Shown here: piece by piece, positions 5,583 to 15,358 of the stretch
Layout of the letters: every line of letters starts with the position of its first letter
How positions within the stretch are numbered: position 1 is the first letter of the stretch
Source of the DNA: Acidobacteriaceae bacterium
GTDB taxonomy: Bacteria; Acidobacteriota; Terriglobia; Bryobacterales; Bryobacteraceae
Direction of reading: 5' to 3'
NCBI GenBank assembly: GCA_019240405.1
Contig: JAFAYL010000057.1
Coordinates: 1-64,000, forward strand
DNA: 64,000 bases
Program-made: the position numbers and the translations under genes
Notes under the pieces: generated by a model
Told to the model about the DNA's origin: nothing
Database searches by the model: none
What the model saw: the letters and a program-made list of their open reading frames with translations, nothing else

Positions 5583-5998
5583 GCCTGCGCGGTCAGGCAA
5601 TCGCTGGACGAGCTCGGCGACGAGTGAGTCGAGAGGAAAGTCCGGTCTTCACAGGGCAGCATGCCGGCTAACGGCCGGGGGTTCACGTTTTTCTTGAGTC
5701 TTCACGGACTCATCGAAGCGCGCGCTACGGAAAGTGCCACAGAAAAGATACCGCTTGCCGGCGACGGCGAGTAAGGGTGAAAAGGTGCGGTAAGAGCGCA
5801 CCGCGGTTTGAGTAATCAGACTGGCAGGGCAAACCCCATGCGAAGCAAGACCAAATAGGGGAGCAGGAGTGGCCCGCTCCGTTACGACTTCCGGGTAGGT
5901 CGCTCGAGCCTTTCAGTAATGAAGGGCCTAGACGAATGGTTGCCGCCCGCCGTTTACATGACAGCGGGTACAGAAACCGGCTTATCGACCGCGCGGGC
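5583..5998 (+). ncRNA. rnpB: RNase P RNA, bacterial type A
   Basis: This is the catalytic RNA that trims tRNA 5' leaders. Diagnostic conserved blocks appear in order: GAGGAAAGTCCGG (from about 5631), the AGGGCAG...GCCGGCTAACGGCCGGGGG segment, AGTGCCACAGAAAAGATACC, GGGTGAAAAGGTGCGGTAAG with AGCGCACCGCG, GAAGCAAGACCAAATAGGG, CCTAGACGAATGG and ACCGGCTTATCGACC. The ends are set by helix P1: GCCTGCGCGGTC (5583-5594) pairs with GACCGCGCGGGC (5987-5998), 12 bp with one G-U. Length is about 416 nt, normal for type A. The last 45 bp overlap the convergent phosphatase gene on the other strand. Confidence 0.97.
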
Positions 5999-7168
5999 AA
6001 CCGGTTCGCCGACAGGGAGGGATTCCGCAACCGTCCTCAGCACGAGGCAGGTGATGTCATCATGCTGACGCGCCGATCCCACGAATGTGTCCACAGATGC
6101 CATTAGTATGTTGAGAACGTCTGCCGCGTTTTGAGCGAGAGGATCGCGCATAATCCCGAGCAGGCGTGCTTCGCCATATTCCTCCTCTTTGTCGTTTTCT
6201 GCTTCGATCACGCCGTCGGTAAAGATGAGCAACAAATCACCTGTGCCGATGATCGCCTCGCCGCATTCGTATTGAGCGCCCGGACGAATGCCGAGGGGCA
6301 ATCCTCCTACCTGCAATCGCTCGATGACGCCGGAGGCGCGCCTCAGCGCAGGCCAGTTATGACCGGCATTTATATAGTTGAGGCGTCCAGTGGCTGGCTG
6401 TAGCTCGGCGAGAAATGCAGTGATGAATCGTCTGCCGCCCAAGTTCTGCCCACATACGTACTGATTGAGGCGTTCCACAAGCTGTAATAAGGAGGCTGGA
6501 AAGGTGGCTAGAGTCCGCAGACTTGCCTGTAGCGTTGCCATCAACAGCGCCGCGGGGACACTCTTACCGGCAACATCGGCGACAACAAAAAGAAGCGGGC
6601 CATCGCCGTTTGCACCATGCGGGTCTTTATCTGTGGCGGTTGCGCGCAAGAATGCATCGTAGTAATCTCCGGCCACAGTATTCGCGGGTCGAGTTGCGAA
6701 CACGATTTCCACGCCAGGAATGCGCGGAGGAGCCTCGGGCATGAGCCAGCTTTGAATCTCGCGCGCAATCTCGAGATCGCGTTTCATGGTGACGCGATCG
6801 GCTAGCTCAAGAGTGAGTAACACGAGCAGCCCAAGACAACCGAAGAAGGCTAGATTGGGCGTGTCAATCGCGAAGTCTCGATAGCGCATGGTGAATCCCG
6901 GGAACGCAATCAGAATCAGGGCGATGAGAAGTATCGCGCGACGCTGCGGGGATAACTTCAGCATCATCGCCCAGAACAGGCCTTGAGCCACTCGCGCGGC
7001 TCGTCTCATCCGGGATTCTCCTTGTCCCCGCGTCCAATCGACTTCTTTCGAATAGAGTTCGTACCCTGTACGGGCTTCCGCGCGAAATTGCGCCCAGAGC
7101 TGCTGAACGGCCATTCCTTCGCTGATACGCTGCCAGAACGCCTTTAGGGAGCGAATCATATTTTGCAA
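5954..7168 (-). CDS. Membrane-anchored SpoIIE/PP2C-type serine phosphatase
   Basis: This is an RsbU-like protein phosphatase that probably dephosphorylates an anti-anti-sigma or other signalling protein. Two hydrophobic helices near residues 80-122 anchor it. A linker with REIQSWLMPE precedes the SpoIIE core from about residue 150: NTVAGDYYDAF, VVADVAGKSVPAALLM, NAGHNWPA, IFTDGVIEA and the terminal HDDITCLVLR supply the metal-binding Asp residues. The TTG at 7168 or the ATG at 7159 may be the start; neither has a clear ribosome site. It follows the LysR gene by a few bases. The last 26 residues extend past the usual PP2C end, and part of their coding DNA is antisense to the rnpB 3' end. Confidence 0.9.
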   Translation of the reverse strand: MQNMIRSLKAFWQRISEGMAVQQLWAQFRAEARTGYELYSKEVDWTRGQGESRMRRAARVAQGLFWAMMLKLSPQRRAILLIALILIAFPGFTMRYRDFAIDTPNLAFFGCLGLLVLLTLELADRVTMKRDLEIAREIQSWLMPEAPPRIPGVEIVFATRPANTVAGDYYDAFLRATATDKDPHGANGDGPLLFVVADVAGKSVPAALLMATLQASLRTLATFPASLLQLVERLNQYVCGQNLGGRRFITAFLAELQPATGRLNYINAGHNWPALRRASGVIERLQVGGLPLGIRPGAQYECGEAIIGTGDLLLIFTDGVIEAENDKEEEYGEARLLGIMRDPLAQNAADVLNILMASVDTFVGSARQHDDITCLVLRTVAESLPVGEPVARAVDKPVSVPAVM

Positions 7169-7171
7169 GGG

Positions 7172-8074
7172 TCAAGTATACGAATAGGCCGACTTCCCGG
7201 CGTTCTCGATAGTAACGTTGATGAACCCGAGCGCTGCCTTGGATAGCGACTTATCCTTTCTATAAATTAAGCCGATTTGGCGGATCATGGGTTCCGGGCC
7301 GAGGGAGACAGCAGCCAATTTTTTTGCCCCGACTTCTTCGAGACAGTGAGAGGCAGCGAGAAACGATAAGCCAAGATCGGCCATGACGAAGCGCTTGATC
7401 ATCTCTGTGGAATCGAGTTCCATTGAGATAGTCAGCTCGTCGTGGACGGAATCGAGCCATGCGTTCAGACGCGCTCGAGTGGTTCCGGTTTTTGGCAGCA
7501 GTAATTGCTCTCCGATAAGATCTTGCGGAGTGATCTGGTTTTTAGCGGCAAACTGATGGCCGGGAGGAACAAGAAGTTTGATCTCGTCAGTGTGAATTTT
7601 TGCGACCTCGAGCTTGCGCTCTTCTAGCGGGAGTTGAGTAATACCGAAATCGGCGAGGTTATCCAACACGGCTTGGACGACACGGCTTCCGTAGGATCGA
7701 TCGACGAGAAGCTCGACTTTCGGGAACTGCTTTTTGAATTCGGCGAAGACGCGCGGTAGGACGTAAATGCACGTTGCTTCGTTCGCCGCGATCAGCAACT
7801 CGCCGCGAGGAACTTTTTCCAGCTCATTGAGGGCGTCCTGGGCGCGGCGGCGTAAGGCGAGGATTTGCTCTGCATATTCGGCAAAGATTCTTCCTGCGAT
7901 GGTCAGCGAAATCTTGCTTCCGAAGCGCTCAAAGAGCGTTGTATTCAACTCCTGCTCTAACTGGCGGACTTGGGCGCTAATCGCGGGCTGTGTGCGGAAG
8001 CAGGTTTGCGCGGCCTTGGAGAAGCTCTTGAGGCGAACGATCTCGAGAAATGTATGAAGCTGGTCAAGATCCAT
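7172..8074 (-). CDS. LysR-family transcriptional regulator
   Basis: This 300-residue protein has an N-terminal winged helix-turn-helix (residues 1-60; FLEIVRLKSFSKAAQTCF and QPAISAQVRQLE) and a two-lobe effector domain that starts near residue 90 (GELLIAANEATCIYVLPRV). The length is typical. It begins six bases after the hisA stop and ends just before the phosphatase, so it is probably read through from the his operon. The effector is unknown; a link to histidine supply is only suggested by position. Confidence 0.93.
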   Translation of the reverse strand: MDLDQLHTFLEIVRLKSFSKAAQTCFRTQPAISAQVRQLEQELNTTLFERFGSKISLTIAGRIFAEYAEQILALRRRAQDALNELEKVPRGELLIAANEATCIYVLPRVFAEFKKQFPKVELLVDRSYGSRVVQAVLDNLADFGITQLPLEERKLEVAKIHTDEIKLLVPPGHQFAAKNQITPQDLIGEQLLLPKTGTTRARLNAWLDSVHDELTISMELDSTEMIKRFVMADLGLSFLAASHCLEEVGAKKLAAVSLGPEPMIRQIGLIYRKDKSLSKAALGFINVTIENAGKSAYSYT

Positions 8075-8080
8075 GGCGGG

Positions 8081-8785
8081 TCACTGGGTGGTTTGGAAAG
8101 CTCGAAGATCGTGTAAAGAGAGCCTGCCCGTGTAGAGCGCCATACCTATGGCGCAGTGAACATCGATGCGCGACAGAACGCGCACTTCATCGAGAGAGGT
8201 AATGCCACCTGCAGCGATCAGCTCATGTTGCGTGCCAGCGCGCAATGTTTTGAACCAGTCGAGATCGGTGCCTTCCATGAGACCCTCCTTGTCGACATAA
8301 GTGCAGAGAAAGCCGGAGCAATAAGGCTCAAGCTCTGAGATCACATCAGTAGCCCGCAAAGCGGTGGACGCTTGCCAGCCTTTGACAACGACGCGATCGT
8401 CTTTGCTGTCGAGAGCAATGGTGATGTGGTCGGGACCGATCGCTTCAGTAAGGGCGGCGAGGAACGGAAAATTAATTCCGTCTGAAGAGAAGGCGGACGT
8501 TCCGACGATGACTCGAAAGGCTCCCTGGCCGATGAGCTGGCGAGCTCGTTCGACTGTACGCACCCCGCCGCCCACGCGAATGGTTGCGCGGCCGGCAAGG
8601 TACCGAACGATTCGATCGTTTGAGCCATTGCCTAATGCGGCATCAAGATCGATTACCTGAATCTGAGGAAAGTCTGCAAAGAAGGCGAGCATTTCTTTAG
8701 GGGACTTTCCTTCGAGAATTTTGGTGCGACCTTGGGCGAGCTGGACCACCTTACCATCCATCAGATCAATACAGGGGATGATCAT
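8081..8785 (-). CDS. hisA: ProFAR isomerase HisA
   Basis: This is the fourth enzyme of histidine synthesis, an Amadori-type isomerase that acts on ProFAR (5-ProFAR to PRFAR). It is a TIM barrel of 234 residues. The catalytic Asp pair is visible as Asp7 in [15 protein letters not shown] and the Asp in [10 protein letters not shown] (about residue 129). Phosphate-binding GGGVRT and AAGGI loops are present. The ATG overlaps the hisF stop in ATGA, so translation is coupled. The order hisF before hisA differs from the common hisA-hisF order. Confidence 0.95.
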
Positions 8786-9549
8786 ACGCAGGTCCTTACG
8801 GGGATGCCGGCGATTTGGAGGGCGCGCTTCAGATCGGTGACTGTGTATTTGCCGTAGTGGAAGATGGAGGCGGCGAGCGCGGCATCCGCGGCTCCTTCCT
8901 TAAAGATGGTGACGAAATCCTGAGGCGTTCCCGCGCCTCCGGAAGCGATCACGGGGAGCGTAGTTGCGCAAACAATGGCGCGAGTCAACGCGCAATCGAA
9001 GCCGCGCTGGACGCCGTCGGTATCCATCGAGGTAATGAGGATCTCGCCGGCTCCGAGGGATTCGCCGCGTTGCGCCCATTCAACGGCGTCGATGCCTTCG
9101 TCGCGACGACCGCCGTTTGTGTACACGTGCCATTTCGCGCCATTAGGAGAGCGCTTCGCGTCGATGGCCAGAACGACGGCTTGTGATCCGAATTCCTGGC
9201 TCAACTCATGAATCAGCTCCGGGCGCCGGACGGCGGCTGTATTAACGCTCACTTTGTCGGCGCCGGATAAGATGACCCCTCCCGCATCGGCAACGCTACG
9301 AATGCCACCTCCTACGGTGAGCGGGATGAAAACTTTGCGGGCGGTTCGGGCGACGACGGACGCCATAATATCCCGCGCGTCGCTTGATGCAGTGATGTCG
9401 AGAAAAACGAGCTCGTCCGCACCTTGGGCGTTGTAGCGCTCGGCTAATTCGACGGGATCACCCGCATCGCGAAGACCGAGGAAGTTTACGCCTTTGACAA
9501 CACGACCGCCGGTAACATCGAGGCATGGCACAATTCGCTTCGTCAACAT
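8782..9549 (-). CDS. hisF: Imidazole glycerol phosphate synthase cyclase subunit HisF
   Basis: HisF is the cyclase half of IGP synthase; it uses ammonia channelled from HisH to convert PRFAR to IGP and AICAR. It is a 255-residue TIM barrel. Catalytic Asp11 lies in [20 protein letters not shown] and the second Asp in [10 protein letters not shown]. Phosphate loops VGGGIR and ASGGAG are present. It lies 12 bp after hisH and overlaps hisA by four bases. Confidence 0.97.
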
Positions 9550-9561
9550 CGAAGTTCTGTT

Positions 9562-10155
9562 TCAGAGATCGAGAAAGTTCTTCATCACGCGCAGACCCGC
9601 AGATCCCGACTTTTCAGGATGAAATTGAACAGCGTAAATATTGCGGTCGTGAAGAATCGCGGAATAGGGATGAATGTAAGTGCAGATTGCTGCCGTGGCG
9701 GTTGTAACTGGAGCGTAATAACTATGAGCAAAATACATGAACGTATCGCCGGGGAGGCCTTCCGTTAACTCACAGGGCTGGACCGGAGAGAGCGAGTTCC
9801 AGCCCATGTGGGGGATACGCGCGTTGCCCGCGAAACGTTTCACAAGGCCAGGAAAAATGGCGAGGCCGGTGCTTTCGGGTGACTCTTCGCTTCCTTCGAA
9901 AAGGCACTGCAGGCCGACACAGATACCAAGAAAGGGAACACCAGCGTAAATTCGTTGAGTAAGAATCTCTCGCAATCCGAGTTTGTCGAGTGCGCTCATC
10001 ATCTGACCGAAACATCCGACGCCCGGAAGAATTAGTTTATTGGCTCGGCTTACGGTGCGAGAACCGGATGTTACAAGATAGCTGGCACCTAACTCTTCGA
10101 GAGCGTTCTGCACGGACCGGAGGTTGCCTGCACCGTAGTCGACGATTACGGTCAT
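9562..10155 (-). CDS. hisH: Imidazole glycerol phosphate synthase glutaminase subunit HisH
   Basis: HisH is the class I glutamine amidotransferase that supplies ammonia to HisF. The nucleophile is Cys79 in [12 protein letters not shown], and the His179-Glu181 pair is in FHPEKSG. The opening [17 protein letters not shown] is typical and the length of 197 residues is normal. The ATG overlaps the hisB stop by four bases. Confidence 0.97.
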
Positions 10156-10739
10156 AGCAAACCCTTAGTTGAAGGCAGTAAGTCTTTCATGCGCTCATCG
10201 GTTGAGCATGCGTAGCGCATAGCTCGACCGAAACATTTGAAGATGGCTTCGATTTTGTGATGATTCGAGCGGCCGTATAAAAGCTTGGCGTGGAGGTTCG
10301 CGCCCGCGTGCTGGGTGAAACCGGAAAAGAAATCTTCGAGCAGCTCGGTTTGCAAATCGCCGACGTGGACGACGGTAACTTGATGATCGAAAACCAGAGC
10401 GGGGCGGCCACCGAGGTCAACTGCGACGACCCCGAGGGACTCGTCCATGGGCTGCACGAAGTAGCCGCAACGGTTGATGCCCCGGCGATCGCCTAACGCT
10501 TTTGCAAAAAGCTCGCCCAAGACGATGCCGGTGTCTTCTACGGTGTGGTGCTGATCCACATCGAGGTCTCCGTGCGCTGTGAGATCCAGGTCAAACGCGC
10601 CATGTTTCGTAAAGAGCTCGAGCATATGGTCGAGAAACCGGATGCCGGTCGAGATCTGATAGCGGCCCGTTCCGTCGATTGACAAAGATCCCCGGATTTG
10701 GGTTTCTTTGGTGTTGCGCTCGATGACGGCGTGTCGCAT
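10152..10739 (-). CDS. hisB: Imidazoleglycerol-phosphate dehydratase HisB
   Basis: This is the single-function IGP dehydratase, step six of the pathway, without the HisB phosphatase domain found in enterobacteria. Metal-binding His-rich motifs are clear: [24 protein letters not shown] and [12 protein letters not shown]. The length of 195 residues matches the single-function class. A histidinol-phosphate phosphatase must be encoded elsewhere, since none is visible in this operon. Confidence 0.97.
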
Positions 10740-10780
10740 TTAGTCAGGTAATTGGCATTGAGCCGGGCATGGCCGGCCTC

Positions 10781-11839
10781 TTACCAGATCTGTTGTAACT
10801 CTTCGAGAAAATATTTGACGTGATCGCGGGTGCCGATGGTTACTCGAACACAGCCAGGGATTTCGTAGCTGCGATCTCGAACAAGGAGCCCGCGCGTTCG
10901 TAGCTTTTCACAGACCTCGCGGGCGCGAGAACCAGCTTGGAATAAGACGAAATTCGCTTGACTGTCAAAATGCGGAATCGCTAACCGCTTCAGGCCTGCA
11001 TACAGTAACTCGCGAGCAGCGAGAACCTCCTTAACATAATTGTCAGTGAATTCCCGGTCGGTTATTGCGACCCGGGCCGCCATAACTGCGAGAGAATTCA
11101 CGCTGCTTGGCGGTTGTGCCTTTTTGATCTGAGTGATGTTAAATGAATGCGAAAAGAGACACCCGCAACGGAGGGCCGCCATGCCGAAGGCTTTCGAGAA
11201 GGTGCGGCTGACAAAGAGATTCGGATACTCGGTGATTAAGGGGAGCACCGTTATGCCGCTGAACTCGTAGTAGGCTTCGTCTACGAGTACCGCGGCGTTA
11301 ACGGCGCGGGCGAGAATGCGCTCGATCGCCTGGACAGTTGTTCCAGTTCCAGTTGGATTATTGGGATTGCTGATCAGAATGGCGCGTGTGGAGTTTGTGA
11401 TCTGATCGAGCAATTCTTCGAGAGGAAATGCGAGAGTTTCCGGGCGGTACGGAATTTCGGCGATGGCTGCGCCAGCGAGCTGGCTATAAAACCGGTACAT
11501 GGCGTAAGAGGGCTTGAGAACGATTACTTCATCGCCCTGATTGACGTAGGTATTTATGAGCAGGTGGATCGCCTCATCAGTTCCGTTCGTCAGGGTAAGT
11601 TGCTGGGTAGCTACAGAGAAGTAGGTGGCTAACTCTTCGAGAGCATGGTCGTACTCGGGATAAATAGCCAAGTCGGCCGCAGTTACATATCGTTGGAGTA
11701 AGTCGAGCACACGAGGCGAGGATCCGACCAGATTTTCATTGAAATCAAGGCGAAGTTTGTTGCGGCGGCCTCCGGTCGGCGGGTGGTATGGGTCCATGCG
11801 CAACACAGCGGCACGTGGAATCAGCGAACTAGCAGCCAT
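10781..11839 (-). CDS. hisC: Histidinol-phosphate aminotransferase HisC
   Basis: This PLP enzyme converts imidazole acetol phosphate to histidinol phosphate. It is a fold-type I aminotransferase with RLDFNENLVGSSP near the N-terminus, ISNPNNPTG, the DEAYYEF loop and the PLP lysine in FSKAFGMAALR. The ATG at 11839 is preferred: it has GGAAT upstream and overlaps hisD by 11 bp. The longer start at 11875 would overlap by 47 bp and adds residues not usual for the family. About 352 residues. Confidence 0.94.
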   Translation of the reverse strand: MAASSLIPRAAVLRMDPYHPPTGGRRNKLRLDFNENLVGSSPRVLDLLQRYVTAADLAIYPEYDHALEELATYFSVATQQLTLTNGTDEAIHLLINTYVNQGDEVIVLKPSYAMYRFYSQLAGAAIAEIPYRPETLAFPLEELLDQITNSTRAILISNPNNPTGTGTTVQAIERILARAVNAAVLVDEAYYEFSGITVLPLITEYPNLFVSRTFSKAFGMAALRCGCLFSHSFNITQIKKAQPPSSVNSLAVMAARVAITDREFTDNYVKEVLAARELLYAGLKRLAIPHFDSQANFVLFQAGSRAREVCEKLRTRGLLVRDRSYEIPGCVRVTIGTRDHVKYFLEELQQIW

Positions 11840-13085
11840 GACGTGATTCCATTCGGAATTCGACCGAGCGAGCATGCGCTTCGAGACCTTCGGCGCGAGC
11901 GAGCGCCGTGATTACAGGAGCGAGGTCTGCCAGTGCAGATGGCGAAAGCTCTTGAACGGCGATGAGCTTGACGAAATCGGCGGTCGAGAGGCCGCCACGA
12001 AGGCGCGCAATACCTCCGGTTGGCAAGACGTGACTGGGACCCGCGGCATAGTCGCCGGCAGATTCGGGCGAGGTTTGCCCGAGGAAAATGGTTCCGGCAT
12101 TTCTGATTTGCGGCAAAAGATGGGCATCGTAAAGAGCGAGGTGCTCGGGAGCGATGCGGTTCGCAAGCTCGACGGCGATGTCCAGATCAGGCGTGATAAA
12201 GATGGCGCTTCCGTTATCGATTGCTTGTGCGGCGGTGGGGGCGGTGGGGAGAGTGCGAAGCTGGGCTTCTAGTTCAGATGATACGGCGTCAGCGAGCGAT
12301 TGAGATGTGGTGATGAGAATGGCGGAAGCACTCGGATCGTGCTCTGCCTGGGCGAGCATATCGGCGGCAATGATGCGCGGATTGCCATCACTCGCGACGA
12401 TTACGATTTCGGTGGGACCCGCGATAAAATCGATTCCTACCTCGCCCGCAAGGAGCTTCTTCGCAGCGGAAACGTAGAGGTTGCCGGGACCGACGATGCG
12501 ATCGACGCGAACGATAGTTTCCGTGCCGAAGGTCATGGCGGCGATTGCGTGAGCGCCGCCGATTCGGTAAATCTCGCGCAAGCCTAAGAGATGCGCACAA
12601 CCTAAAATTTCGATGGAAGGCTTGGGCGAAGCAACGCAGATTCTCGAGACGCCGGCGGTTTGAGCGAGCACGGCAGTCATGAGCAACGTGGATGTTAGAG
12701 GATAGCGTCCGGAAGGGACATAGCAACCGACCGCTTCGAGAGGCTTAACGATCCAGCCTAATTTGCGTCCGGGCGAGAACTCCTCGAAATATTCGCGCGG
12801 CAGTTGCGCTTCGGCGAATTGGCGGATATTGCGAATTGCCAACTCCGAGGCTTTGCGCACTTCGGGACACATGCGTTCGGCCGCTTCCCGAAGCTCATCG
12901 CCGGTGACACGCAAGGGCAGATCGCCGAGCGCATCGAATTGGCGGGCGTATCTAAGCAGCGCCGAATCGCCTTGCTTCCGGATCGCGTCGAGAATTGAGC
13001 GAACGGCCTTCTCATATTCGGCGAGATCAGCGCGGCGGTTGAATTTGGCTTGCTCGGCGCTGTTGATGGAGTGAATTTTGATCAT
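11829..13085 (-). CDS. hisD: Histidinol dehydrogenase HisD
   Basis: HisD carries out the last two oxidations from histidinol to histidine with NAD and zinc. The 418-residue protein contains GCYVPSGRYPLTST, IVGPGNLYVSAAKKLL, DFIAGPTEIVI, the zinc-site segment AEHDPSASA and the catalytic Glu-His in IAPEHLALY, then the C-terminal GPSHVLPTGG. Length and order are normal. It starts 8 bp after hisG. Confidence 0.97.
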   Translation of the reverse strand: MIKIHSINSAEQAKFNRRADLAEYEKAVRSILDAIRKQGDSALLRYARQFDALGDLPLRVTGDELREAAERMCPEVRKASELAIRNIRQFAEAQLPREYFEEFSPGRKLGWIVKPLEAVGCYVPSGRYPLTSTLLMTAVLAQTAGVSRICVASPKPSIEILGCAHLLGLREIYRIGGAHAIAAMTFGTETIVRVDRIVGPGNLYVSAAKKLLAGEVGIDFIAGPTEIVIVASDGNPRIIAADMLAQAEHDPSASAILITTSQSLADAVSSELEAQLRTLPTAPTAAQAIDNGSAIFITPDLDIAVELANRIAPEHLALYDAHLLPQIRNAGTIFLGQTSPESAGDYAAGPSHVLPTGGIARLRGGLSTADFVKLIAVQELSPSALADLAPVITALARAEGLEAHARSVEFRMESRHGC

Positions 13086-13093
13086 TGCCGGGC

Positions 13094-13963
13094 TTAGATG
13101 ATGATCTTGTTCAACGGGTATTCGACAATCCCCTGCGCCCCGGCTTCTTTGAGCCGCGGAATGATGCTCCGGACGGTGACTTCTTCGAGGATGGTGTTAA
13201 CCGCGACCCAAGCGTCATCACTGAGCTGCGAAATGGTGGGATTCTTGAGCGCCGGGAGAACCGAGATGACGCTGGCGAGATCGTCTTTTCGGACGTTGAG
13301 CATGAGGCCCACTTTTCCGAGAGCGTTCATGGCGCCTTCAAGGAGCATTTTGATGTCGGCGAGCTTGCGGCGCTTCGTGTCGTCGGCCCACGCGTTTCGG
13401 TTTGCGATGAGCTGGGTGTTCGATTCGAGAACGGTATCGATGATGCGGAGTTTGTTCGCTCGCAGCGATGAGCCGGTTTCTGTTACTTCGACGATGGCAT
13501 CGGCGAGCTCCGGCGGTTTGACTTCTGTTGCGCCCCAGCTAAATTCAACGTTCGCGGTGACCCCTTGGGAGGCGAGGTAGCGTTTGGTGGTACAGACAAG
13601 CTCGGTAGCGATAATTTTTCCTTGGAGATCTTTGACGCTGCGGTAAGGTGATGCTTCGGGAGCGGCGAGCACCCAGCGTACTTTTCCGAAGCTCTGTTTG
13701 GCATAGATCAGCTCGGCGACAGTTTCGACTTGCGCTTCGTTTTCTTGGACCCAGTCGCGACCGGTGAGCCCTGCATCGAGAACACCGTCTTCCACGTAGC
13801 GCGGCATTTCTTGAGCACGGATCAACATGCACTCAATTTCGGGATCGTCGATGGCGGGGAAATAACTCCGGCTGCTTGTGGCGATGTTGAAGCCGGCGCG
13901 GCGGAACAGATCGATGGTCGCATTTTCCAAGCTGCCTTTCGGGATTCCGAGCTTGAGGATCAC
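13094..13963 (-). CDS. hisG: ATP phosphoribosyltransferase HisG, long form
   Basis: This is the first and feedback-regulated step: ATP plus PRPP gives PR-ATP. The start is the GTG at 13963, which gives [21 protein letters not shown], the standard HisG N-terminus. An upstream in-frame start (14122) would run inside hisI and encode Arg-rich text unlike the family. Conserved parts are [10 protein letters not shown], the PRPP-binding [18 protein letters not shown] and a C-terminal ACT-like domain (about 210-289). At 289 residues it is the long form, which does not need HisZ. GTGA overlaps the hisI stop. Confidence 0.95.
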
Positions 13964-14346
13964 GGCTTGGCTCCATAGACTGCATCTGGATCGTAGGCTT
14001 TGGCTTCCGTTTCGACCCAGACGCCGTTTTTCCAGGAGCGGTAAAAACAGCTTTCGTATCCTTTGTGGCAGACGCCGGGGCCGATTTGCTCTGCTTCGAC
14101 GAGCAGCGCGTCTCCGTCGCAATCGATCGCGACGGATTTCACCATGAGGTAATGACCCGAGCTTTCGCCCTTCGTCCAGAGCTTTTTGCGCGAGCGGCTG
14201 AAGAAGGTGACACGGCCGGTGGAGATGGTTTTTTCGAGAGCCTCACGATTCATGTAGCCGAGCATCAGCACACGATGAGTTCGGGCGTCCTGCACAACGG
14301 CGGGAATGAGAGCACCCGGTTTGTCGAACTGTAAAGATGCAGCCAT
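13960..14346 (-). CDS. hisI: Phosphoribosyl-AMP cyclohydrolase HisI
   Basis: HisI opens the purine ring of PR-AMP, the third step. The 128-residue protein has [14 protein letters not shown], the metal-binding [17 protein letters not shown] and [12 protein letters not shown] with zinc-type Cys residues. There is no fused HisE domain, and no hisE (PR-ATP pyrophosphatase) gene is seen in the operon. It is the first structural gene after the leader-terminator region; its ATG lies about 15 bp after the terminator T tract and has no strong ribosome site. Confidence 0.95.
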
Positions 14347-14361: not shown

Positions 14362-14388
14362 AAAAAACCCGCCTTTTTGTGGCGGGTC
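14362..14388 (-). terminator. Intrinsic terminator of the his attenuator
   Basis: Read on the minus strand, ACCCGCC (14387-14381), loop ACAAAAA and GGCGGGT (14373-14367) form a 7-bp GC-rich stem followed directly by TTTTTT. It sits between the His-rich leader peptide and hisI. Placement upstream of the first structural gene, not after the operon, fits premature termination when histidine is plentiful. Confidence 0.9.
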
Positions 14389-14431
14389 CTACGATACAGA
14401 AACTAGATGATTTCGAACGCAGGCGCCGTCA

Positions 14432-14479
14432 TTACACCATTGGGTGATGGTGATGATGAAGATGCGCGTATCGAATCAT
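14432..14479 (-). CDS. hisL: his operon leader peptide, MIRYAHLHHHHHPMV
   Basis: This 15-codon frame, ATG to TAA, encodes six His codons within seven positions (CAT CTT CAT CAT CAC CAT CAC). It resembles the enterobacterial HisL peptide in composition and place. Within it, CACCAT (14452-14447) and ATGGTG (14440-14435) can form a 6-bp hairpin with loop CACCCA; a ribosome stalled at the His codons would block it. No Shine-Dalgarno lies upstream. A TATACT box ends 7 bases before the ATG, so the RNA may begin at or next to the start codon. Confidence 0.9.
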   Translation of the reverse strand: MIRYAHLHHHHHPMV

Positions 14480-14486
14480 TAGTGGC

Positions 14487-14492
14487 AGTATA
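14487..14492 (-). promoter_or_regulatory. his operon promoter, -10 box TATACT
   Basis: On the minus strand TATACT ends seven bases before the leader ATG, so the expected transcription start is about 14480. No good -35 hexamer is found at 16-19 bp. The position implies a leaderless or nearly leaderless leader-peptide mRNA. No other promoter-like match was seen between 14480 and 14571. Confidence 0.5.
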
Positions 14493-14571: not shown

Positions 14572-15246
14572 TCAGGCGGCGCGTTTTTTGTCGTAATACG
14601 TGTGGTTATAGATGGCCATCTTCTTGCTCACCTCGGCGGCGTGACGCGCGACTTCTTCAGTTGAAAATTCGAACCCAAATTCGGCGGCATCGAATACCGC
14701 GCCGGCTTTTTGGGCCTGATGATAAAGCTGCCAAGCTTGCGTCATCTGATTCTCGCGGCGCTGTTTACGTTCGTGTTGCAGCTTCTGTAGCTCGGCTTGA
14801 TCCTTTTCGCGCTGCTTGCGCAGGCGGGCTTCCTGAATGCTCAGGTTGTTGAGGTCTTTTCGATAGGTGAGAAAGACTTGCGCTTCGATTAATGAGGCGC
14901 GGACTTGCGGATCTTCCTCGTGCTCGAATTGTTTGGCGAGCGCGAGACGGCCGATGGCGTAGATGCCCATTTCAAGTGACGGGATGCGGAGCAAGCGCCA
15001 TTCGGTGTCGGCGAGAGATTGCGTAAGAGCGGATTCTTCATCTCCAGTGGGCTTGTATTGATCGAAGAAGCGTTGGACGTGCTTCTGGTAAGCGGCGGCA
15101 TCGTCGCTTGGCAGCAGGACGGTGCGTCCGGTGAGCCCGGTTTTGACCGCATTTAATGAGGATTTGGCTTTACCTTCCGGCGTTTTCGGACCGGTAGAGA
15201 GGTGACTGTTGGCACGGTTAGCCTCGATTTGTGCGTGGGATGACAT
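14572..15246 (-). CDS. Hypothetical protein with STGPKTPEGK N-terminal motif
   Basis: The protein opens with a motif, RANSHLSTGPKTPEGKAKS then SLNAVKTGLTG, that from memory recurs in multi-copy proteins of Acidobacteriota and Planctomycetes with no known function. Residues 110-190 are a charged coiled coil (KQREKDQAELQKLQHERKQ). No signal peptide is seen. The ATG at 15246 is chosen because it places the motif near the N-terminus; a start at 15291 would add 15 residues. About 224 residues. Confidence 0.78.
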   Translation of the reverse strand: MSSHAQIEANRANSHLSTGPKTPEGKAKSSLNAVKTGLTGRTVLLPSDDAAAYQKHVQRFFDQYKPTGDEESALTQSLADTEWRLLRIPSLEMGIYAIGRLALAKQFEHEEDPQVRASLIEAQVFLTYRKDLNNLSIQEARLRKQREKDQAELQKLQHERKQRRENQMTQAWQLYHQAQKAGAVFDAAEFGFEFSTEEVARHAAEVSKKMAIYNHTYYDKKRAA

Positions 15247-15358
15247 GGTTTGGGAAAAGATCATCGAGAGCACAGTAGCATGGCGGAACAAGCGTTTCGG
15301 GTTAAGTTGTTGAAGGGATTAAGTGAGATTGTTGTGAATGTACGTTTGAGGGGGACTA

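Follow-up and report, generated by a model that had tools for sequence, protein, structure and literature searches.

The closest described system is hisL of Escherichia coli and Salmonella, in which a leader with His codons, alternative 1:2, 2:3 and 3:4 pairings and a terminator precede the first his gene (PMC9413887, PMC3896937). Leaders of this sort have been described for his genes of Proteobacteria and of some Firmicutes (PMC9413887). The predicted Firmicutes cases comprise the Bacillus cereus group, Peptostreptococcaceae and Erysipelotrichales, with hisS/hisZ as targets in bacilli (PMC9413887, PMC2965389). A leader peptide translated from an mRNA whose 5' end is the start codon itself is known from trpL of Sinorhizobium meliloti (PMC7298713), and leaderless genes have been predicted to make up 9.7-19.4% (average 13.3%) of the genes in three Acidobacteria genomes (PMC3160421). 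Our literature search, which left many subscription journals outside, found no report of his attenuation in Acidobacteria. Here we analysed a predicted his attenuator in the genome of an Acidobacteriaceae bacterium (GCA_019240405.1, contig JAFAYL010000057.1). The stretch of DNA analysed, positions 1-64,000 of the contig (64,000 nucleotides), is called the window below.

Results

All elements of the attenuator are located on the minus strand of the window (Table 1). The original prediction had described, without naming a strand, a 15-codon frame with six His codons, a CACCAT/ATGGTG hairpin inside its last codons and an ACCCGCC/GGCGGGT terminator with T6 ahead of hisI. Frame, hairpin and terminator are indeed present, and the coordinates given (14362-14492) are correct. 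The His codons read CAT CAT CAT CAC CAT CAC, and the frame is without a Shine-Dalgarno site. The seven bases GCCACTA separate the TATACT box from the leader ATG. An A/T-rich stretch followed by CGTAGG (14393-14388) connects strand 2 with the terminator, which ends 15 bases ahead of the hisI ATG (14346).

Table 1. Positions of the attenuator elements and of the his genes in the window.
Feature	Position	Strand	Basis
-10 promoter box TATACT (putative)	14492-14487	minus	sequence; promoter activity predicted
Leader ORF MIRYAHLHHHHHPMV, 15 codons, six His	14479 (ATG) to 14432 (TAA)	minus	conserved His run in relatives
Strand 1, first leader codons	14463-14479 (boundaries approximate)	minus	minimum-energy fold and pairing in relatives
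Small hairpin CACCAT-CACCCA-ATGGTG, over last leader codons, 3' of His run	14452-14435	minus	paired in minimum-energy fold
Strand 2 GGCGCCTGCG, antiterminator 5' strand, just 3' of leader stop	14427-14418	minus	folding
Strand 3 CGTAGGACCCGCC, antiterminator 3' strand, takes in terminator 5' arm	14381-14393	minus	folding
Intrinsic terminator ACCCGCC-ACAAAAA-GGCGGGT + T6 (strands 3:4)	14387-14362	minus	sequence, fold
hisI, phosphoribosyl-AMP cyclohydrolase, operon gene 1	13960-14346	minus	NCBIfam NF000768 over cut-off
hisG, hisD, hisC, hisB, hisH, hisF, hisA, presumed co-transcribed	8081-13957	minus	NCBIfam

Genes hisI, G, D, C, B, H and F scored above their NCBIfam cut-offs, and hisA was a clear match below the cut-off. 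Within the operon (8081-14346, minus strand) hisI is of the single-function type, and hisE was not seen. Directly 3' of hisA on the same strand we noticed by eye two frames, one for a protein resembling LysR-type regulators (7172-8074) and one with the look of a PP2C/SpoIIE-like phosphatase (5954-7168); both (5954-8074) may be co-transcribed with his.

Searches with known RNA families gave no match of Rfam RF00514 (His_leader) in the window even at an E-value of 10, and in 20 relatives none reached the gathering score (best scores 26.3 and 25.5 bits vs 49). No T-box or riboswitch was matched in the window or in the relatives searched. Thr_leader was rejected for the window with 24.7 bits against a threshold of 55, and anti-hemB stayed sub-threshold in relatives.

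The original prediction had been staked on conservation of the His codons and the terminator in related genomes. Relatives were gathered via HisI; records labelled Bryobacterales and Bryobacteraceae are among the matches within the family. The family set consisted of 89 genomes with readable sequence 5' of hisI (loci L081-L170 except L093, which is truncated). A short frame with at least three His in eight residues, i.e. a His-rich leader, was present in 84 of these 89 genomes and one with at least four in 80. Nearly all of the 84 frames are followed by a GCCCGCC/GGCGGGC terminator. In a wider set of 97 upstream regions, made up of the family and a few loci outside it, at least four His in eight residues were found in 87 regions vs 8 of 1940 dinucleotide shuffles. 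Terminators of -10 kcal/mol or lower lay within 130 bases of hisI in 90 regions vs 23 of 194 shuffles; the 97 regions are no independent trials, because they are related to each other and include three duplicate loci.

The relatives' leaders are 13-26 residues long with 3-9 His (mean 5.3), encoded by both CAT and CAC. The position of the terminator is nearly fixed, at a median of 27 bases past the leader stop. The peptides diverge widely outside the His run and the spacing of His varies. A retained His run amid otherwise divergent residues fits a codon sensor rather than a conserved peptide. Folding of the window's leader RNA yielded a z of -3.8, which is beyond chance. In close relatives hairpins of other sequence (CCATC/GATGG and similar) replace CACCAT/ATGGTG, which possibly serves as an RNA polymerase pause hairpin.

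Three relatives depart from this pattern and count against attenuation. Between the TATACT box and the GCCCGCC/GGCGGGC terminator, both of them retained, the leader ORF is absent from L089 (genome G166, of the same genus) and L116 (G001, of the same family), apparently after two separate deletions. Histidine-dependent control of this type should be lost from the two his operons. L117 carries 5' of hisI, in the position of the leader and with the right promoter spacing, a frame MQLPPVRTTRDSRPAGGHGCAMG without a His run.

All three pairings of an attenuator (1:2, 2:3 and 3:4) are present in the window. The original prediction had proposed pairing of GGCG with CGCC as a weak antiterminator. This pairing exists, but it extends by CCTGCG/CGTAGG behind a 3-base bulge to the helix GGCGCCTGCG/CGTAGGACCCGCC, so that the antiterminator is stronger than had been thought, while weaker than in most relatives. 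The 2:3 helix is the best fold of the window's RNA until strand 4 has been made. Once strand 4 exists, the terminator becomes the more stable fold at equilibrium, even with a stalled ribosome; read-through in the window would therefore depend on the order of folding during transcription.

The stalled state was modelled for 82 relatives by folding the RNA 3' of a ribosome in the His run as far as the 3' edge of the terminator loop. The terminator 5' arm paired upstream in all 82, with a mean probability of 0.87 vs 0.64 after shuffling of the upstream sequence; the relatedness of the sequences makes p-values optimistic, and because of the high shuffle background (0.64) the argument leans more on the stop-codon state and on covariation. 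Placing the ribosome at the stop codon lowered the upstream pairing of the arm to 0.28 in the relatives, because strand 2 overlaps or directly follows the stop codon. In untranslated RNA of 79 relatives, strand 2 paired with the beginning of the leader, which the ribosome would otherwise cover, at a mean of 0.77 vs 0.55 for shuffled sequences. A 1:2 pairing is the usual protecting pairing in attenuators.

A free alignment of 79 leaders, analysed with RNAalifold, yielded the terminator but missed the antiterminator, since the register and spacing of strand 2 differ from lineage to lineage and the terminator arm hardly varies in the family. More distant relatives were therefore used to assess covariation. 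Across the phylum, strand 2 and the terminator arm covary from one lineage to the next. The 2:3 helix is CGGGC/GCCCG in most of the family, GCCGGG/CCCGGC in L171, GTGCCAGCGG/CCGCTGGCAC in L173, TAGCGG/CCGCTA in L174 and CCGGAGGG/CCCTCCGG in L202, with CCAGCGG/CCGCTGG as a further example from the phylum. Covarying stems in relatives, which had been suggested as a check, are thus found in the helix equivalent to the antiterminator. Leader, terminator and mutually exclusive pairings, with their conservation and covariation, can be read from the sequences themselves.

Next to the leader start the relatives show a striking regularity. A TANNNT hexamer, mostly TATACT, precedes the start by exactly 8 bases in 49 of 88 leaders and by 9 bases in 20. 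At distances of 5-11 bases it is found in 81 of the 88, spacings other than 8 and 9 being rare. An extended -10 motif (TGn) accompanies 61 of the leaders and a Shine-Dalgarno-like site only 4. The spacing in the window is 7 vs 8-9 in most relatives; in loci outside the family it is more variable, and an upstream TTGACA box is present in some of these. As a rule, transcription begins some 7 bases past the -10 hexamer. The mRNA is therefore expected to start at the AUG or within about 3 bases of it. This position of the -10 box together with the near absence of Shine-Dalgarno sites implies a leaderless or near-leaderless mRNA, from which the His leader peptide is probably translated.

Spread of the leader beyond the family was examined by scanning 40 longer loci of the class and phylum that belong to other families. 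A His leader with a terminator was found before hisI-first operons in ten loci of the class (L171, L173, L174, L177, L179-L182, L185, L189) and in five of the phylum (L195, L197, L199, L204, L205). In L202 it is placed immediately 5' of hisD, and a weaker one lies 5' of hisG in L209. Reading of loci that the strict scan had missed added leaders in L175, L176, L183, L184 and L194. Judged by these candidate leaders, his leaders recur in other families of Acidobacteriota and probably occur in other classes of the phylum, too. A similar scan of many non-acidobacterial loci of the first set revealed no His leader just 5' of hisI, which is no survey of other phyla as hisI is often not the first gene there.

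Leaders for other amino acids were seen as well. 5' of ilvB relatives of the genus have Val/Leu-rich frames, MNRLQKVVVLLGAVAHRTA (L238, ~1303), MNRLSTVVALLGLVVTGSA (L243, ~1213) and MNRLYTVVALAVVVAVRSTA (L244, ~1301), each with a TATATT-like box just before the ATG and a strong GGGCCACC/GGTGGCCC terminator behind. They likely represent a branched-chain attenuator built like the his one. In L235, from the window's own genome, a comparable terminator-like stem is retained at ilvB, but no Val/Leu-rich leader was found. The order-level relatives L236, L240 and L241 show Ile/Val-rich frames 5' of ilvB that end in ...IIRISSAIIIAVGVSGPG* or similar and are followed by a terminator-like stem, probably another type of ilv attenuator. 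Searches with TrpE and LeuA in relatives gave no convincing leaders. The branched-chain leaders at ilvB in the same genus hint at a general mode of amino-acid sensing in the phylum.

Discussion

The conserved leader and terminator support the original reading as a his attenuator, which is refined in two respects: the antiterminator helix is longer than GGCG/CGCC, and the leader is probably borne on a leaderless mRNA, unlike in the enterobacterial model. On the strength of the comparative data we are highly confident that the hisIGDCBHFA operon is controlled by classic ribosome-mediated transcription attenuation. We infer the start of transcription, translation, stalling and the response to starvation as follows. 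RNA polymerase would start at the leader AUG or a few bases 5' of it, and a ribosome would load onto the leaderless or near-leaderless mRNA and synthesize the His-rich peptide. With ample charged His-tRNA it would reach the stop codon and cover strand 2, the 3:4 terminator would form and transcription would end before hisI. When charged His-tRNA is scarce, the ribosome would stall in the His run and cover strand 1, leaving strands 2 and 3 to pair and polymerase to read through into the operon. In the absence of translation 1:2 pairing would let the terminator form by default. With a leaderless start the ribosome would have to load at the very 5' end, immediately behind the polymerase.

The terminator might instead belong to an upstream gene, and the His frame be a product of chance. 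An open frame on the same strand does sit upstream (14572-15291). However, a promoter-like box is located between it and the leader, and a chance frame is at odds with the joint retention of His frame and terminator before hisI across family and phylum and with the yield of just 8 frames with at least four His in eight residues from 1940 shuffles. Conservation thus contradicts a terminator of the upstream gene with a fortuitous His frame, and we give this explanation practically no credence. Another view holds that the peptide itself is the active agent, by metal binding or as a regulator in trans, with attenuation being secondary or absent. A His run is able to bind metals. Leader peptides can have extra functions, and peTrpL of S. 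meliloti also acts in trans (PMC7298713). Yet peptide length, His spacing and the sequence outside the His run vary freely while the RNA pairings stay, and the leader was always sited before his genes in the loci seen; a peptide function of this kind appears very improbable to us.

A milder alternative accepts the attenuator and assigns it a normal 5' untranslated region, with the promoter further upstream and a fortuitous TATACT box. No clear -35 box was evident by eye in the window, and the box is further from the start in some relatives outside the family, as would suit a normal 5' region. Against it stand the sharp clustering of TANNNT at a distance of 8-9 bases ahead of the start (69 of 88 leaders), the extended -10 in 61 and the scarcity of Shine-Dalgarno-like sites (4 of 88). 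We consider a promoter further upstream rather unlikely and favor the view that the attenuator starts on a leaderless mRNA.

Taken together, the data make it fairly likely that a his attenuator structurally distinct from the enterobacterial family, with its peptide started on a leaderless mRNA, extends over much of the Acidobacteriota. Leader-peptide attenuation of his genes would thereby be extended to another phylum. An abundant and poorly studied soil phylum gains a concrete mode of gene control whose prediction can be tested, and the leader offers a natural test of the coupling between leaderless translation and transcription.

Compared with known systems, the kind of attenuation is not new; its spread in Acidobacteriota, the absence of a match at the Rfam gathering threshold and the putative leaderless start are. 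The attenuator as such is well supported by the data. The predicted attenuator shares with hisL of E. coli and Salmonella the leader, the alternative pairings, the terminator and the operating logic. It differs in belonging to another phylum, in scoring below the Rfam His_leader threshold, in having hisI instead of hisG as the first gene and in its probably leaderless leader mRNA. The last would be its sole unusual feature. The Firmicutes his attenuators resemble it in their predicted His-codon leader, terminator and antiterminator, there by comparison only (PMC9413887, PMC2965389), and differ in lineages, downstream genes and structures, and in being confined to small groups vs much of a phylum here. 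The T-box his attenuators of Firmicutes and Actinobacteria likewise sense the charging of His-tRNA and control transcription termination, but bind uncharged tRNA directly and do without a leader peptide. S. meliloti trpL shares the mRNA that begins with the AUG of the leader peptide (PMC7298713), whereas it senses tryptophan and controls trpE(G) in an alphaproteobacterium.
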